This document shows, one piece after another, positions 24,866-31,650 of a stretch of 64,000 nt of DNA. Made by a program: the position numbers and the translations under genes. The notes under the pieces were generated by a model, which saw only the letters and a list, made by a program, of their open reading frames with translations, was not told the DNA's origin and made no database searches. How positions within the stretch are numbered: position 1 is the stretch's first letter; every line of letters begins with the position of its first letter. Source of the stretch: Hyunsoonleella pacifica (GTDB taxonomy: Bacteria; Bacteroidota; Bacteroidia; Flavobacteriales; Flavobacteriaceae); contig NZ_SIRS01000006.1 of NCBI RefSeq assembly GCF_004310335.1, positions 36,297-100,296 of the forward strand, written 5' to 3'.

Positions 24866-27800
24866 TTATTTCTGTATTACCTTCACGTTCATTTCTTCTA
24901 CTTTTTTATCAGAAAGGGGAGAAGGAGAACCAAACAACAAATCTTCACTAGTTCCTGTTTTCGGGAATGCCATTACTTCTCTAATGGATGCTTTTTTCTC
25001 TAAAATCATCATCAACCTATCAACACCCCAAGCAATACCACCATGGGGTGGAGCGCCATAATGAAAAGCATTATACATTGTACCAACACTTTTCATCATT
25101 TCATCTTTGTCATAGCCCATATTTTTATATGTGGCTTCTAAAATTTCAGGTTTGTGTGCACGCACTGAGCCCCCGCCAATTTCGTAACCATTAAGAATCA
25201 AATCGTATTGTTGCGCAATAATACTCCCAATTTCTTCTTCTTTTCCATTAATGTGTTTTTCAATGTCGTAAACAGCAGGCATTGAAAATGGATTATGAGT
25301 AAATGTCCAATTACCTTCATCAGTTTTTTCAAACATTGGGAAATCTACTACCCAAGCAGGTCGCAATTCCTTAGGATTAATAAGCTTTAGCATGCTGCCT
25401 AATTCTTGTCTAACTGCATCTAAAGCTTTATTGGCAGTATCATAATCTGCAGCAGAGAAAAATACAATATCTCCAACTTGTGCATTGGTGGTTTTTATGA
25501 TATTTTCTGCAATAGACTCTCCTAAAAATTTAATGATGGGAGATTGTAAATCGTTTTCATTTACAATAATATATGCTAGTCCTCCTAAACCATGGTTTTG
25601 AGCAATAGCTGTTAACTTTTCAATTTGACCTTTAGATAATCTTTTGTTTCCTTGTTCTTTAGCAGAAACTTTAATACACTTTACAATACCACCTTCATCA
25701 ATAGGTTTGCTAAATACTTGAAAGGACGTTTCTTTAACAATAGCTGTAATATCCTGAAGTTTTAATCCAAAGCGTAAATCAGGTCTGTCACAACCGTAAT
25801 AATCCATAGCTTCTTTATAAGTCAATACCTCAAACGGATGTAAAATCCATTTTTTACCATAGATTTTAGAAACAATAGTATTGAACATTTTAGTATTCAA
25901 ATCTATAATATCCTGCATACTGGCATAAGCCATTTCAATATCTAGTTGTGTGAATTCTGGTTGTCTGTCGCCACGAGAATCTTCATCTCTAAAACAACGC
26001 GCAATTTGGAAGTATTTTTCATAACCACTTACCATCAAAATTTGTTTGAATTGTTGGGGTGCTTGTGGAAGCGTGTAAAAAGACCCTGCTTTTTTACGGG
26101 TGGGTACAATAAACTCTCTTGCACCTTCGTCAGTTCCAGCTGTTAAAATAGGGGTTTCTACTTCTAAAAATTCTTGTTCATCAAGAATATCACGCATTAA
26201 CTTAATAACCTTATGGCGATTTACAATGGCCTTTCTAACAGCATCATTCCTATGGTCTAAATATTTATATTGAAAACGCACCGTTTCATTGGATTTGTGA
26301 GCACGTTTTATTTCAAAAGGTAATGTTTTAGATAAGTTTAAAATATCTAATTCTGAAATTTCTAGTTCAATAGTTCCAGTCCTTAAAGAAGGGTTGTAAT
26401 CATCTTCTTTACGTTGCACAACTTCTCCTGTTACAGTGATAACAGATTCTGGCTTAAGTTTTACTAATTCATCGAGATTAGGAAACGATTCTCTACTAAT
26501 ACGAACTTGGAAAATTTCATGACTGGAATCTCGCAAATCAATAAACATCAATTCTCCATGATCGCGAACACTAGATACCCAACCTGCTAAAGTTACTTTT
26601 TCCGAGATGGAAGCTTCACTTAAATCAGAAGCCTTATGTGTTCTATATTGTTCCTTGATAACGATAGGAATTTCAGGAAGTTCCTCTTCATTATTGGTTG
26701 CTGGTTGCTGGTTATTGGTTGTTGGTTTATCACTTTTTACTGAATTACTAGTGATAGATTCACTATTAGAGCCTTTCAATTGCTCTAAGATACGTTCTCG
26801 AATTACTTTTCCAGAAGCACCTTTGCCAATAATTCCAATAACTTTCCCTACTAATATTCCAGCTTTTCCTTGATTGCCAGCCTTAATATCATTTGCAACG
26901 TCTTCATTTTCAACAATAACTTTAGTAATAGCTTCTTTGATTGTTTCTTCGGAAATAGTATTAGAATCAAAATACGTTTTATAATCGAATTTTGAGTCAG
27001 CTAATAAAGACTTTATAGCATTTTGTACTAAAACAGGTGTTACTTTTTCAGCTTTAAACAAACTGAAAATTTCAATAAAATCAGAAATATGTTCAATTTT
27101 AGAATAATTTTCTGGCTTAATATTATTTGTTAATGTTTTAGCAACAAATGAAGGTTCTTTTATAATATTGTTTATCGTTACAAATGTTGAAGAGCGTAAA
27201 GCATCGCCAGTAAAAAATTTAGCGTCTTGTGGCAAAACACCTCCTTTTATTAAAATAGATTCTACAGCAAAAGGGAGCGTGCTTAAATCCACATCAATAC
27301 TATCAACTACATCTTTAATGTTTACAAAAGGAAGGTCTGGTTCAGATATAAAACGATAATCTGCTTCAAACTCCTTTTTACGCATTGTCTTAGTTTGCTT
27401 TAAATCAGCATCAAAAAGCACCGTGGTTTGGTCTGGTCTAAATTCCTTGTGTTCTAAATAATAATTAAGTTGCTTTTCAACTTCTTCTTTTAAAGCCTCA
27501 ACCATAAACTTAAACGAGTTAAGGTTTTTTATTTCGGTACGGGGATTTAAATCGTAGGTGTGCTTTTTACGAAGCGACACAGAAACATCGGATTTAAATT
27601 CTCCTTTTTCAAGATTAGCTTCAGAAATTCCTAAATTCTGAACAATACGCTGAATGTATTGTGCATAAATGGATGCGTCTTCAATATGGCGAATACAAGG
27701 CTCTGTAACAATTTCTATTAGTGGTACTCCAGCCTTATTGAAGTCTACTAAAGACACTTTCTTTTCGTGCATTAACTTTGCAGCATCCTCCTCAATATGT

Positions 27801-28207
27801 ACTTGTGTTAAACTCACTGTAAATTGAGACCCATCATTTCTGAAACAAGATACTTGTCCGTCAGGAATTACAGGGTTATGAAACTGTGTAATTTGTATAT
27901 TCTTTGGGTTGTCAGGGTATTCATAATGCTTTCTGTCCCAAGAAATCACTTCATTTTCAAAGGTAGATTTTACTGCTTTTCCAAAGTGAATTGCTTTAAC
28001 TATCGCTTCTTTATTTATAGCAGGTAAGACACCCATTTGTCCCGTACATACTGAACAAATATTATGGTTTGGAATTTCGATATCTCCAGCATTTGCACAG
28101 GAACAAAATAATTTTGTTTTGGTATTTAATCGAACATGAGTTTCCAGACCTATTACCAACTCTATCTCGTGTGCTTTTAGCAACTCATTTAATTGTTGTA
28201 GCTCCAT
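24866..28207 (-). CDS. gatB-aspS: Fused GatB amidotransferase subunit and aspartyl-tRNA synthetase
   Basis: 1113 residues in one frame. Residues 1-~478 are full-length GatB: VIGLETHVRLNTKTKLFC, zinc cysteines 35, 37, 51 and 54, VDFNKAGVPLIEIVTEP, and a C-terminal tail domain ending GKVIRERILEQL. Residues ~480-515 are a Ser/Asn/Gln/Glu-rich linker. Residues ~516-1113 are a complete bacterial-type AspRS with OB-fold anticodon domain, GAD insert, motif 2 FRDEDSRGDRQPEFTQ (739-754) and motif 3 GGIAWGVDRLM. RDHG places His550 where non-discriminating AspRS enzymes carry His. The chain could aspartylate tRNA(Asn) and hand it to its own amidotransferase. It overlaps gatA by one base (TAATG). No frameshift or internal stop suggests an artefact. 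Confidence 0.93.
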   Translation of the reverse strand: MELQQLNELLKAHEIELVIGLETHVRLNTKTKLFCSCANAGDIEIPNHNICSVCTGQMGVLPAINKEAIVKAIHFGKAVKSTFENEVISWDRKHYEYPDNPKNIQITQFHNPVIPDGQVSCFRNDGSQFTVSLTQVHIEEDAAKLMHEKKVSLVDFNKAGVPLIEIVTEPCIRHIEDASIYAQYIQRIVQNLGISEANLEKGEFKSDVSVSLRKKHTYDLNPRTEIKNLNSFKFMVEALKEEVEKQLNYYLEHKEFRPDQTTVLFDADLKQTKTMRKKEFEADYRFISEPDLPFVNIKDVVDSIDVDLSTLPFAVESILIKGGVLPQDAKFFTGDALRSSTFVTINNIIKEPSFVAKTLTNNIKPENYSKIEHISDFIEIFSLFKAEKVTPVLVQNAIKSLLADSKFDYKTYFDSNTISEETIKEAITKVIVENEDVANDIKAGNQGKAGILVGKVIGIIGKGASGKVIRERILEQLKGSNSESITSNSVKSDKPTTNNQQPATNNEEELPEIPIVIKEQYRTHKASDLSEASISEKVTLAGWVSSVRDHGELMFIDLRDSSHEIFQVRISRESFPNLDELVKLKPESVITVTGEVVQRKEDDYNPSLRTGTIELEISELDILNLSKTLPFEIKRAHKSNETVRFQYKYLDHRNDAVRKAIVNRHKVIKLMRDILDEQEFLEVETPILTAGTDEGAREFIVPTRKKAGSFYTLPQAPQQFKQILMVSGYEKYFQIARCFRDEDSRGDRQPEFTQLDIEMAYASMQDIIDLNTKMFNTIVSKIYGKKWILHPFEVLTYKEAMDYYGCDRPDLRFGLKLQDITAIVKETSFQVFSKPIDEGGIVKCIKVSAKEQGNKRLSKGQIEKLTAIAQNHGLGGLAYIIVNENDLQSPIIKFLGESIAENIIKTTNAQVGDIVFFSAADYDTANKALDAVRQELGSMLKLINPKELRPAWVVDFPMFEKTDEGNWTFTHNPFSMPAVYDIEKHINGKEEEIGSIIAQQYDLILNGYEIGGGSVRAHKPEILEATYKNMGYDKDEMMKSVGTMYNAFHYGAPPHGGIAWGVDRLMMILEKKASIREVMAFPKTGTSEDLLFGSPSPLSDKKVEEMNVKVIQK
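26694..26728. repeat. Heptad array coding the GatB-AspS linker
   Basis: Five 7-bp units (TTGGTTG, CTGGTTG, CTGGTTA, TTGGTTG, TTGGTTT) lie within the linker-coding part of gatB-aspS, read on the opposite strand as PTTNNQQPATNN. Unit length and copy number match the intergenic array at 6653-6687, suggesting the linker came from former intergenic DNA. Confidence 0.75.
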
Positions 28208-29607
28208 TATATCGTCTCTTTTAAGAAGTTAGCAAACTTCAAAACAAGTTCGTCATTCGTTTTTGCTGCGGTAATTTGTAAACCAGTATCTGTACCTTGC
28301 GGAATGGTTAATGTTGGTAACTGCCCTAAACTAAATCCTACGGTATAAGCATCAGATAAATACATAGCTAATGGGTCTTTTAAACTATCGCCAATTTTAG
28401 GAGGAGTATTAGGTGTTACAGGAGATATAATAATATCAACCTCTTTAAAATCATGTTCAAAATTTTCTGAGATTTGATCTCTAAGGTTTAAACCTTTTAG
28501 GTAAATTTCATCTGAAAACCCTTGAGATAATACTTGATTGCCACCAACTATTCTACGTTTGGTTTCTTCTGAAAAATTTTCAGAACGTGTAATTGCATAC
28601 GTTTCTTTTAAATCTTCGGCTTCAATACGATTGCCGTAATTTGTGCCATCAAGTCTAGAAAGGTTTGATGCAGTTTCAGCCATAGCTAAGGTATAATATG
28701 TTGAAACAAGTGTGTTAGATTCAAAGAAATCTAAAGCTTTTACTGTAATACCTTTAGCTTTTATTTTCTCTATAGTGGTTAAGAAATCCGACTTTATTTT
28801 TACATCAATTGCTTCACTTTCAATAAAGTTTTTAAAATAACCAACAGTTTTTATGCTTTCAGTATGTAATAAGCTGTCTTCAGCAATTATATCAGAACTA
28901 TAAGAGGTTTGGTCTTTTCCATCTTGTCCGCTTATCACATTTAAAACGATGCGAATATCTTCAATAGATTTGGCAATAGGTCCAACACAATCAGTAGACG
29001 AGGCGTAAGCCATTAATCCGTATCTAGATACGCGCCCATAGGTTGGTTTTAAACCATAAACATTATTATATCCAGCAGGTTGACGAATAGATCCTCCTGT
29101 GTCTCCTCCTATAGAAAATACAGTGTAATCTTTAGCAACGTTAACAGCAGAGCCACCACTAGAACCTCCACCAACTAAGTTGGGATTTATAGCGTTTTTA
29201 ACAGCACCAAAAATGGTGTTTTCACTTGAAGAACCATGACCAAAGCTATCACAATTTTCTTTTACCAATGGTATAGCACCTGCATCCAATAATTTCTGAA
29301 TTGCTGTTGCTGTATAAGCCGATTTATACTTTTTAAGTAAATCTGAACTAGCAGTAGTGTATGTGCCTTGTACCATATACACGTCTTTAATTCCAAAAGG
29401 AATACCTTCTAAAATACCAATAGCTTTCCCATTGGCAATTTTTGTATCTACTTTAGCAGCTAAAGTAAGTGCTAATTCATCTAATAGTGCATTAACAGTG
29501 TTGTGCGTATTAGGTTTTAGAGCTTCTAACTTTTCTTGTACAAGTTGTGTACACGTTATTTTCTTATCCACTAGCAGTTGGTGGATTTTTCTAATTTGAG
29601 AGTCCAT
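28207..29607 (-). CDS. gatA: Asp/Glu-tRNA amidotransferase subunit A
   Basis: 466 residues. The amidase-signature triad is complete and correctly spaced: Lys74 (GIKDVYM), cis-Ser149 (GGGSSGGSA) and nucleophile Ser173 (GGDTGGSIRQPAG). It hydrolyses Gln (or Asn) and passes ammonia to GatB for amidation of Asp-tRNA(Asn) or Glu-tRNA(Gln). It sits 3 bp after the gatC-like gene and overlaps gatB-aspS by one base, so all three are one transcription and translation unit. Confidence 0.95.
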   Translation of the reverse strand: MDSQIRKIHQLLVDKKITCTQLVQEKLEALKPNTHNTVNALLDELALTLAAKVDTKIANGKAIGILEGIPFGIKDVYMVQGTYTTASSDLLKKYKSAYTATAIQKLLDAGAIPLVKENCDSFGHGSSSENTIFGAVKNAINPNLVGGGSSGGSAVNVAKDYTVFSIGGDTGGSIRQPAGYNNVYGLKPTYGRVSRYGLMAYASSTDCVGPIAKSIEDIRIVLNVISGQDGKDQTSYSSDIIAEDSLLHTESIKTVGYFKNFIESEAIDVKIKSDFLTTIEKIKAKGITVKALDFFESNTLVSTYYTLAMAETASNLSRLDGTNYGNRIEAEDLKETYAITRSENFSEETKRRIVGGNQVLSQGFSDEIYLKGLNLRDQISENFEHDFKEVDIIISPVTPNTPPKIGDSLKDPLAMYLSDAYTVGFSLGQLPTLTIPQGTDTGLQITAAKTNDELVLKFANFLKETI

Positions 29608-29610
29608 AAT

Positions 29611-29877
29611 TTAACTTTCAATTACTTTAGAAACTACCAAGTAGTTATTTTTTTGTTTTGGGAAATTTTCAATGATAATTTGCTTTTCAGTTTCAGAACT
29701 ATCCACAATCACATCGTCTCTCAAATCATTTAAAGAAATGGCATTATTATGATTACTAAAAGAATTATTATTTGATGTGTTTGCTTTTTTAATAACTTCA
29801 AATAATTTATTCACAGCCTCAGAAGGCCGCGCTCCTTTAATGCTCGACAATATGTCGACTGTCATAATTTTACTCAT
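29611..29877 (-). CDS. gatC: Divergent GatC-like subunit
   Basis: 88 residues. The C-terminal half (NDLRDDVIVDSSETEKQIIIENFPKQ then YLVVSKVIES) matches the GatC pattern LREDxV...NAP...F.VPKVI. The N-terminal half does not show the usual GatC LAxLARLxL helix; instead it has KGARPSEAVNKLFEVIKKA and an Asn-rich stretch (8 Asn between residues 33 and 50). Position immediately before gatA supports the call. GatC normally clamps GatA to GatB; the altered N-terminus may reflect the fused partner. The start codon lies 17 nt after the attenuator's T tract. Confidence 0.7.
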   Translation of the reverse strand: MSKIMTVDILSSIKGARPSEAVNKLFEVIKKANTSNNNSFSNHNNAISLNDLRDDVIVDSSETEKQIIIENFPKQKNNYLVVSKVIES

Positions 29878-29894
29878 AGCTGAAATTTTATATT

Positions 29895-29927
29895 AAAAAA
29901 AGCCTTCCATAATTGGAAGGCTTTTTT
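29895..29927 (-). terminator. Attenuator terminator upstream of gatC-like gene
   Basis: Arms AAAAAAGCCTTCCA and its complement around a 4-nt loop, followed on the minus strand by a T tract. No gene lies upstream for it to end; it sits between the leader peptide and the first structural gene. Confidence 0.92.
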
Positions 29928-29955
29928 ATATGTTTGAACAATAACCTTCCGAACC

Positions 29956-30003
29956 CTAAAAATTAGGATTATTGAAATTATTATTGTTATTGTTGTTTTC
30001 CAT
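29956..30003 (-). CDS. Asn-rich leader peptide (MENNNNNNNFNNPNF)
   Basis: A 15-codon ORF (ATG at 30003, TAG at 29956-29958) with 10 Asn codons (AAC and AAT mixed). It begins about 13 nt after a -7 box and stops 28 nt before the terminator stem. Composition and placement are those of an attenuation leader peptide; it is not expected to act as a protein. Confidence 0.8.
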   Translation of the reverse strand: MENNNNNNNFNNPNF

Positions 30004-30016
30004 TGTTTTAAAAAGC

Positions 30017-30024
30017 CAAATATA
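30017..30024 (-). promoter_or_regulatory. -7 box for the gat-aspS leader
   Basis: TATATTTG on the minus strand, fitting TAnnTTTG; the predicted start of transcription (~30013) is about 10 nt before the leader ATG. No convincing -33 TTG at 19-20 nt. Confidence 0.65.
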
Positions 30025-30204
30025 TACAGAATATACATAGCATCCCTGTTTTTTTTACCCTCACATTGCATTATTGCTAAATTGATAAAAAAATTGATTT
30101 TAATTTTTAAGTTTTTACACTAATTAGGGTAATTGTTAACATTATATATAGTCTATAGTGTAATAAATTGTTATTCAATAGGCTAAATTATATGTGTTTA
30201 TTGC

Positions 30205-30330
30205 ATTTGTGTGATGGCGTTACCCCCACTTTTCTACAGTTTCAGGACAAGAAGAAACGAATCTGTCTCTCGGCAGGCTTTCCGTTACAAGTTCCCGCTG
30301 AGCTGTGGGCTTCCCACAATTTTTACTTGG
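30205..30330. repeat. Possible eroded dispersed repeat
   Basis: In the ~310-bp gap 30072-30381, phrases GGCGTTACCCCCAC, GGCAGGCTTTCCGTTAC, TTCCCGCTGAGC and GGGCTTCCCACAATT follow each other. As I recall, similar phrases occur in GC-richer dispersed repeats of other flavobacteria (GGGCGTTACC ... GGGCTTTCCG). No intact inverted ends are left. Otherwise the gap is AT-rich and empty. Confidence 0.35.
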
Positions 30331-30381
30331 GAGTATTTGCGAACTTTAGTTTTAGCTCATAGCTTGTTGTATATTAAAACC

Positions 30382-31650
30382 TTATTTCAATGAGATTTGA
30401 TATTGTAATACAGCCATGCCTTTATAGCTTTTTTGTTGTAAACTCTCAGCATCAAATATAGGTCTATGTTGATAGCCTAAACTCAATTTGTTGCCATGAG
30501 AACTATTTACAAAAAAGTTTATTGTAACATCATAAACGGTCATTTTATCTTCTAACTTATCCCAATCAGAATGTTGTATGGAAATATTAGGCTGAATAAC
30601 TATTTTTTGATTAAAAACATTTGTTTCTTCAAAGGCGTATCCAAATTGTCCGTACCAGGTTGTTCCTGTACCAATCATTGGGAATGCTACACCAGGGCCA
30701 TTAAAATCTGTACCACCACCAGATGTTGGGTTGTTTGCACCAACATTTCGTATATAATTAGCTCCAAAATCGTAATCATAAAAACCTAAATAAGCAGTAA
30801 TAGCATCTCCGTTTACAAGTGGTAAATTTAAAAATGAATCCACAGCAAAATGGGTCATATCATAAAATGTGGTAGACTCCAATCTTGCATCACCATCGCT
30901 CATCGCTTCAGGTTGATATTGAAATCCTGCACCTACATTAAAAACTTTTTTGTGTTGCATGTAAGTGCCAACTTGGTAGGCAGATTTATTAGATTCGTGT
31001 TCAAAAAATTGATATTTCAAATAAGCAGATGTTTTTACACGGGGTTTATTGTTTGCAAAATTTACTGAGCCATCTGGGATAACGGTTACAAAAAAGGGTC
31101 TGTTAAATGCCATTCTATAATCAAATTTACCAATCTGTCCTTTTACCCATACCCCAAATAAACGACCTAAATCATCATTTTTTTCAACTGAGTTTAATGT
31201 AAATAATGGAGAGTCTAGTCCCATTAAGGTTTTGTTAGAGCGTATATTCCAGCGACTTAATCCCTGCCAACCAGATTTACCAACGCCAATTTCAAAATAT
31301 TTTCCAAATGTATATTCAGCGTAAAGATCTAAAACCTCAAGCGGAGGATCCTTCTTTTTAAAATTAAAATTATTTCCACCAAAAATCGCATATAGAAATA
31401 TCTTCGGGGTTACTTGAGAAGACACAGGAATTCGTAATCTTCTAATTGATATATCAAAAAAATCAGAGGTGGGCTCTTCCTGAATTAAAGACCCGCTATT
31501 TAAATCAGAATAACGCAACCATATTTGAGAAGTGATGTTCCATTTTATTTTTGGTGTTCGTTTTTTTTCGGTTTGACTTAATAATAACAGAGGCGTAATT
31601 AGGGCTATGGATATCAACCATATTTTTAATACCCTTTTTTTAAGTATCAT
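30382..31650 (-). CDS. Outer-membrane porin, OprO/OprP-like
   Basis: 422 residues. A signal peptide (LISIALITPLLLLSQ) is followed by alternating amphipathic strands throughout: LEVLDLYAEYTFGKYFEIGVGKSGWQGLSRW, VWVKGQIGKFDYRMAFNRPF, TSAYLKYQFFEHE and a final barrel strand AVLQYQISLK. The pattern fits phosphate-selective-type porins of Bacteroidota that are often annotated only as porin. The solute is not predictable. Confidence 0.75.
   Translation of the reverse strand: MILKKRVLKIWLISIALITPLLLLSQTEKKRTPKIKWNITSQIWLRYSDLNSGSLIQEEPTSDFFDISIRRLRIPVSSQVTPKIFLYAIFGGNNFNFKKKDPPLEVLDLYAEYTFGKYFEIGVGKSGWQGLSRWNIRSNKTLMGLDSPLFTLNSVEKNDDLGRLFGVWVKGQIGKFDYRMAFNRPFFVTVIPDGSVNFANNKPRVKTSAYLKYQFFEHESNKSAYQVGTYMQHKKVFNVGAGFQYQPEAMSDGDARLESTTFYDMTHFAVDSFLNLPLVNGDAITAYLGFYDYDFGANYIRNVGANNPTSGGGTDFNGPGVAFPMIGTGTTWYGQFGYAFEETNVFNQKIVIQPNISIQHSDWDKLEDKMTVYDVTINFFVNSSHGNKLSLGYQHRPIFDAESLQQKSYKGMAVLQYQISLK

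Follow-up and report, generated by a model that had tools for sequence, protein, structure and literature searches.

Ribosome-mediated attenuation of transcription is generally known from Enterobacteria, where the operons of the trp/his/phe/thr type provide its basic scheme. In these systems, a leader ORF rich in codons for the sensed amino acid ends in a stop codon near RNA arm 2, two mutually exclusive hairpins (2:3 and 3:4) compete with each other, and the operon behind them serves the same amino acid; all of these features are shared by the locus described here. Leader-peptide attenuation has also been proposed before amino-acid operons of Flavobacterium psychrophilum (PMC9723704), so that the same mechanism has been put forward in the same bacterial family. 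As for operons of tRNA-dependent transamidation, it has been reported that the one in Clostridium acetobutylicum is controlled by a T-box (Saad 2012, 2013; PMC4206432, PMC4052509).

The region studied here lies in a window of 64,000 nucleotides, i.e., the whole stretch of Hyunsoonleella pacifica DNA that was analysed, and is in all likelihood an Asn-specific, ribosome-mediated transcription attenuator of the trp/his type in front of a gatC-gatA-gatB/aspS operon. The promoter box, the leader ORF, the exclusive structures sharing arms 2 and 3, and the joint presence or absence of these parts among relatives are shown by the sequences, while the transcription start, the translation of the leader and the response to tRNA charging are inferred without expression data. 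An earlier note, written on the window only, had suggested attenuation by low Asn-tRNA(Asn); comparison with relatives supports this suggestion, with start, translation and response still inferred.

Probable Leader–Attenuator Region in the Window

The features of the region and of the operon are collected in Table 1. First of all, the box TATATTTG is taken to be a −7 box of the Bacteroidota type, whose consensus is TAnnTTTG. The 5′ arm of the terminator, AGCCTTCC, is able to pair with GGAAGGTT of arm 2 instead of with its own 3′ arm. The earlier note had claimed the −7 box, the ORF of 15 codons with 10 Asn, its stop, the 5-nt spacer and the terminator with its alternative pairing, and all of these held at their place; the third hairpin that it drew across the leader stop held only in part, only CCTA/TAGG being conserved.

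Table 1. Features of the putative attenuator region and the operon (rows are those of the alignment of 49 leader regions).
Feature	Position	Strand	Remarks
−7 promoter box TATATTTG	30017..30024	-	TAnnTTTG also before all 59/59 leader ORFs
Leader ORF MENNNNNNNFNNPNF, stop TAG	29956..30003	-	ATG at 30003, TAG ending at 29956; 15 codons, 10 Asn; ORF found in 59/123 upstream regions
Arm 1, Asn codons AACAATAAT	29980..29988	-	pairs with 29937-29945 of arm 2
Arm 1b, TTTC	29974..29977	-	pairs with GGAA of arm 2; paired in 49/49 rows
Small hairpin CCTA/TAGG spanning the leader stop	29955..29967	-	four pairs, 49/49 rows
Arm 2, GGAAGGTTATTGTT	29937..29950	-	common to protector (1:2) and antiterminator (2:3); includes GGAAGGTT at 29950-29943, 5 nt past the leader stop
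Arm 3, AGCCTTCC	29915..29922	-	part of both antiterminator and terminator; GCCTTCC the same in all 49 rows
Intrinsic terminator hairpin (arms 3:4) and T run	29895..29926	-	arms AGCCTTCC (29922-29915) and GGAAGGCT (29908-29901), T run reaching 29895; 59/59 leader regions, 0/64 others
gatC-like gene, 88 aa	29611..29877	-	TIGR00135, E 2.9e-4, 21.1 bits (cut-off 47.1)
gatA, 466 aa	28207..29607	-	TIGR00132, E 8.2e-130, 433.7 bits (cut-off 481.1)
gatB-aspS fusion, 1113 aa	24866..28207	-	both halves above NCBIfam cut-offs

The fold energy of the leader region is −34.5 kcal/mol, compared with −18.1 ± 3.1 kcal/mol in 200 shuffles (z −5.3). On both strands of the window, the leader is the sole ATG-started ORF of 10–25 aa with at least 7 Asn. 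A porin-like ORF on the same strand ends upstream at 30382, at a distance of 378 nt from the leader start, and the claim that the terminator has no upstream gene to end has therefore failed for the window, the neighbouring gene in relatives often being divergent. The segment 30180-30370 between the porin gene and the leader looks structured, yet it folds much like its shuffles (z −0.84) and has no Rfam match.

Survey of the Cassette and Its Upstream Regions

GatA of the cassette type (74–100% identity) is found in 45 of 299 sampled Flavobacteriaceae genomes, the genome of the window included; some GatA match exists in 178 of the 299, and those beyond the 45 are far weaker amidases. A phylum-wide GatA search (E ≤ 1e-120) returned 3 of 355 sampled genomes, again including that of the window and all Flavobacteriaceae; that is to say, the cassette was not seen outside this family in the 355 sampled genomes of the phylum. 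A plasmid search gave no match. From a second collection of 232 relatives, the best 80 were retained as named loci, whose titles or lineages read Flavobacteriaceae, Flavobacteriales or unplaced Bacteroidota. With 14 further regions added, and with one locus (L078) lost through a contig ending before gatC, 124 gatC upstream regions were read in total, of which one (L117) repeats the locus of the window, leaving 123 to be counted. Some of these loci share identical sequence, so the regions are not independent.

As for the genes of the operon, the match of the gatC-like gene to its family is weak and under the cut-off, and a gatC homologue precedes gatA in 79 of the 80 named loci, the contig ending there in the 80th. 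TIGR00132 is the best family for gatA, although the score is under the cut-off. The gatB-aspS of the earlier note is corrected here to one fused ORF (24866-28207), with GatB at residues 14-478 and a bacterial-type AspRS at residues 519-1112; the fusion aligns as a single stretch across both halves in 80/80 named loci, one of which is truncated at residue 1058 by a contig end. An Asn-rich stretch is also present in GatC itself, near residues 33-46. Since the first 50 residues of GatC contain on average 8.5 Asn in the leader class and 9.4 in the non-leader class, this stretch is not tied to the leader.

The leader ORF and the module terminator are both present in 59 of the 123 regions and both missing in 64. 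Relatives keeping the terminator without the Asn codons, which according to the earlier note would have refuted attenuation, were not met, because the terminator accompanies the leader in 59/59 regions and is found in 0/64 without it. The ORF is intact in all 59, GTG replacing ATG in one, and by sequence TAnnTTTG starts 18–27 nt 5′ of the leader ATG in 59/59 loci. Moreover, the nearest upstream ORF (≥100 aa) is divergent in 16 of 31 leader loci of relatives; the terminator is therefore independent of a same-strand upstream gene.

In 63 of the 64 non-leader regions, an element within 3 changes of AAAACTTTYGTAATTTTGC is located 43–61 nt before gatC, while the 59 leader regions all lack it; L174 and L175 also carry such an element. 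It contains TAATTTTG, taken by the Bacteroidota consensus to be a −7-like box. This element, exclusive with the leader, is likely to be an unattenuated promoter, its activity being inferred from sequence. The exception is L051 (Polaribacter sp. Hel1_85), which has neither module and carries a different hairpin with a T run before gatC.

Conservation of the RNA Arms and the Leader Codons

The alignment consists of 49 leader regions, i.e., the 59 without 9 duplicates and without L064, and its aligned length is 115–124 nt. L064 is omitted from the 49 rows and from the antiterminator count because its arm 2 reads TGAAGG and fails the extraction rule; with this change in the first base of arm 2, it still scores 80.7 bits to the covariance model described below.

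The antiterminator (2:3) has 8 pairs, and 392 of 392 cells are standard in the 49 rows (without L064); when it is slid by one column, pairing falls to 75% or 72%. One-sided changes occur in three of its pairs and two-sided changes in none (0/392 cells). The protector helix (1:2) is paired in 98.9% of cells, the CCTA/TAGG hairpin in 100% (49 rows) and the terminator in 89.8%, where the loss is mostly due to one outer A:U pair (missing in 37/49 rows) and for the rest to small shifts of the 3′ arm. Across the modelled helices, only 2 of 1421 cells are changed on both sides, and the structure is therefore supported by the conservation of shared arms, not by covariation. Thus, of what the earlier note expected from an alignment of relatives, the conserved Asn-rich short ORFs held and the covarying arms failed, covariation being almost nil.

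In all 49 aligned leaders, there are 14–16 codons with 7–10 Asn, and the stop is TAG, followed by a spacer of 3–5 nt to arm 2. Counting codons back from this stop, Asn stands at codon −11 in 46/49 (AAT:AAC 26:20) and at codon −12 in 47/49 (AAT:AAC 36:11), both outside the modelled helices. The mixture of AAT and AAC at these two conserved codons is inferred to be a sign of selection on codon meaning. Other positions are less conserved, Asn being found at codon −13 in 29/49 and at codon −2 in 35/49, while codon −8 is Arg in 5/49 and Thr in 1/49; some leader Asn codons double as pairing bases. Phe at codon −6 and Pro at codon −3 are each kept in 48/49. At the exceptions (TTT or TCT for TTC, TCT for CCT), the modelled pairs stay standard, so it is apparently RNA pairing, and not the peptide, that keeps these codons in place.

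Proposed Mechanism and Folding Model

In the proposed mechanism, when Asn-tRNA(Asn) is plentiful, the ribosome would reach the TAG and cover GGAAGG 3–5 nt downstream; with arm 2 covered, arm 3 would pair with arm 4 and transcription would end. When Asn-tRNA(Asn) is scarce, the ribosome would stall within the Asn run, leaving arm 2 free to pair with arm 3, and the polymerase would continue into the operon, where GatC, GatA and the GatB-AspRS fusion are expected to provide the route by which Asp-tRNA(Asn) is amidated to Asn-tRNA(Asn). Since this product is exactly what the stalled ribosome lacks, the loop would close on the direct product of the operon.

The folding model simply deletes the RNA 5′ of and beneath the ribosome and folds the rest at equilibrium up to arm 3. 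Ribosomes were placed on 8 different leader codons, and for each of them the predicted probability of 2:3 exceeds 0.5 in 48–49 of the 49 leaders. A ribosome at the stop covers arm 2 by the design of the model, and what is left of the RNA folds at a median of −17.4 kcal/mol. When no ribosome is present, the equilibrium medians are 0.97 for 2:3 and 0.02 (range 0–0.80) for the 1:2 protector, and a simple equilibrium protector role therefore leaves arm 1 unexplained. Being made first, arm 1 might serve as a pause hairpin, which is only an inference; equally, the model allows that untranslated leader RNA may read through by default.

Specificity of the Module

A covariance model made from the 49 aligned leaders was run on 346 genomes of the order, and it gave 5 matches above 100 bits, every one before gatC-gatA. 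Some match at E ≤ 0.01 appears in 89 of the 346 genomes; beyond the five, all reach at most 50.1 bits and were treated as noise under a rough calibration, and 5 that were checked had no gatC or gatA nearby. The genome of the window has one covariance match at E ≤ 0.01, so no regulon was found in it. A search of the same genome for the 18-base leader core with at most 2 mismatches was also set aside, as it hit 3 places (one exact) and its reversed control hit 3 as well.

In the window, every Rfam family stays under its gathering score, and the T-box is absent even from the weak Rfam matches of 29000-31000. Among the sub-threshold matches, Thr_leader has 29.8 of 55 bits and Phe_leader has 29.6 of 55. 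Unrelated RNAs match as well, the best of them being STnc230, which lies on the + strand and scores higher (45.4 of 50 bits), and the Thr_leader and Phe_leader scores therefore show no kinship.

Asparagine Synthesis on tRNA as the Probable Function of the Operon

Alongside GatCAB, the genome of the window contains GlnRS, AsnRS and a stand-alone AspRS, and since GlnRS is present, GatCAB is not needed there for Gln-tRNA. Of the 44 cassette genomes counted for AsnRS (all but G170), 40 have it over its cut-off. The fused AspRS has the motif RDHG in 80/80 named fusions, which is also found in 4wj3 and 4rmf (named Asp/Asn ligases); the motif is RDLG in 6hhv (named Asp ligase), which is taken to be Thermus-type, and RDKG in the stand-alone AspRS of the window's genome. 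It is generally known that this AspRS residue marks relaxed tRNA choice. RDHG is thus compatible with a fused AspRS of the non-discriminating type, which remains a possibility, its activity being inferred from sequence alone. The one tRNA-Asn located by pattern in the genome has U1-A72, the pair recognised by bacterial GatCAB (PMC4206432). In summary, GlnRS, AsnRS, the second AspRS and the U1-A72 tRNA-Asn fit asparagine made on tRNA.

Canonical AsnB (NF006949 at E ≤ 1e-140) matches 225 of 299 family genomes (223 over the cut-off), and AsnA (TIGR00669 at E ≤ 1e-10) matches 22 of 299, each with 0/45 among cassette genomes. That is to say, neither enzyme is matched in 45/45 cassette genomes (2 of which are less than 80% complete) versus 17/254 others (Fisher 1e-39, kinship uncorrected). 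The sensed amino acid therefore fits the operon better than was first supposed, and by gene content the operon is the probable route by which these bacteria make asparagine. With AsnRS mostly present and no canonical synthetase, supplied asparagine would enter via AsnRS and switch the operon off. The 17 non-cassette genomes having neither canonical AsnB nor AsnA may be auxotrophs, incomplete genomes or users of another route.

TIGR01536 was dropped as a marker of asparagine synthetase in favour of NF006949 because it also catches other amidotransferases; at E ≤ 1e-60 it is unmatched in 51 of 299 genomes, 29 of these being among the 45 with the cassette. Broader AsnB-like TIGR01536 homologues occur in 16 of 44 cassette genomes; the window's genome contributes three such proteins. 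The NF006949 scores are 271–308 for these three and 252 for one of G061, compared with a cut-off of 499 and 951 for canonical AsnB, so that the homologues scored in these two genomes fall below canonical AsnB, their activity being unknown. Lack of TIGR01536 homologues (18/27 leader and 10/17 non-leader genomes; p 0.75) shows no link with the leader.

Evolution of the Leader State

A quick tree without bootstrap was made from 81 joined GatA and GatB-AspRS proteins (33 with leader, 47 without, 1 unassigned). On this tree, 11 changes of the leader state are needed, versus 25.7 with shuffled labels, and at least 8 changes are forced by well-supported branches. The leader state is thus patchy yet heritable, and the modules replace each other in place via loss, regain or recombination. 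That the cassette sits at two different sites was considered and rejected, since gyrB and a porin recur upstream in both classes and the sites are largely the same; the cassette loci of Flavobacterium and Lutibacter have other neighbours.

Three genomes (G237, G228 and G180), 99% complete, contain the cassette without a full AsnRS and without the leader. AsnRS is lost in 0/26 leader versus 3/17 non-leader genomes (p 0.055), which is only suggestive; this test left out G271, a leader genome 76% complete and also without AsnRS. Genomes with neither AsnRS nor leader are what would be expected if attenuation were tolerable only while AsnRS offers a second route.

A bolder reading joins these points into one claim: the fused transamidosome enzyme would be the only Asn route, under direct product feedback via the leader ribosome, and an unattenuated promoter would have taken the place of the attenuator time and again (at least 8 changes), the attenuator being given up where AsnRS was lost and the operon became indispensable. 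Taken as a whole, this claim is considered slightly more apt to be wrong than right.

Alternative Explanations

The first alternative is that the leader senses slowed or blocked translation in general, or poly-Asn nascent-chain stalling, instead of Asn-tRNA charging. In its favour, the folding model has arm 2 freed by a ribosome halted at any point ahead of the stop, and the Phe and Pro codons are kept in nearly all leaders. On the other hand, the two Asn codons outside the helices are kept while AAC and AAT vary freely, the operon makes Asn-tRNA, and Phe and Pro apparently serve RNA pairing and not the peptide; this explanation is regarded as very unlikely.

Less credible still is an untranslated RNA sensor (T-box-like or riboswitch) of tRNA-Asn or asparagine, with the ORF incidental. 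The strong sequence conservation, the antiterminator favoured without a ribosome, and the T-box governing the transamidation operon in Clostridium (PMC4052509) speak for it. Against it, no Rfam family is found at gathering score in the window, the aligned region is far shorter than the 200–300 nt of a T-box element (PMC4052509), and the ORF stays intact in every leader region (once with a GTG start).

A plain terminator insulating the operon, served by another promoter, from upstream transcription, for which only the same-strand porin-like gene of the window speaks, is very improbable too, as the upstream ORF is divergent in about half of the leader loci of relatives, the module terminator never occurs without the leader, and no leader region has the alternative promoter-like element.

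Asn-specific attenuation remains the preferred reading; a point against it is that 64 of 123 cassettes manage without the module.

Comparison with Known Systems

With Deinococcus, Thermus and Bdellovibrio (PMC4206432), the present bacteria share AsnRS, GlnRS and GatCAB without asparagine synthetase, as well as the U1-A72 tRNA-Asn and, in the case of Deinococcus-Thermus, a second AspRS; they differ in that their own second AspRS, of the bacterial type, forms one protein with GatB. The survey in PMC4206432 counts 18 genera of this make-up, with Bacteroidetes among them, and lists a second AspRS for Deinococcus-Thermus alone; an extra AspRS is reported there for another 15 genera, most of them Actinomycetales or Clostridiaceae. 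The proposed control offers a reason why cells bearing AsnRS retain a second AspRS and GatCAB, and it ties the cassette to the missing asparagine synthetase.

Concerning novelty, the earlier note had called ribosome-stalling control of a transamidosome operon in Bacteroidota undescribed, which needs narrowing in view of F. psychrophilum (PMC9723704) and the Clostridium T-box. The elements in section 19 of PMC9723704 differ in standing before pheA, hisG, alaS and others, and gatA, gatB and aspS are not mentioned in its main text. In the open PubMed Central papers searched, no report was found of an Asn leader, of leader-peptide attenuation of a transamidation operon or of a GatB-AspRS fusion. 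The class of mechanism is thus already known, while, within that literature, the Asn specificity and the transamidation target appear to be new.

If the reading is true, this is an asparagine-specific attenuator and, in the literature searched, apparently the first case of a tRNA-dependent amino-acid pathway under ribosome-mediated control, the T-box being the only other RNA control found described for such an operon; the related operons with and without the switch form a natural set for testing its benefit. In the Clostridium system, as is proposed here, termination ahead of a transamidation operon depends on the state of tRNA-Asn, and both organisms have redundant Asn routes; there, however, the tRNA (tRNA-Glu too, PMC4052509) binds the RNA, whereas here a translated leader would do the sensing and no T-box is seen. 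Compared with the attenuators of the trp/his/phe/thr type, the present one has Asn codons, a promoter of the Bacteroidota type and the CCTA/TAGG hairpin across the leader stop; and while those operons make a free amino acid, the operon behind the Asn leader would yield the charged tRNA directly.
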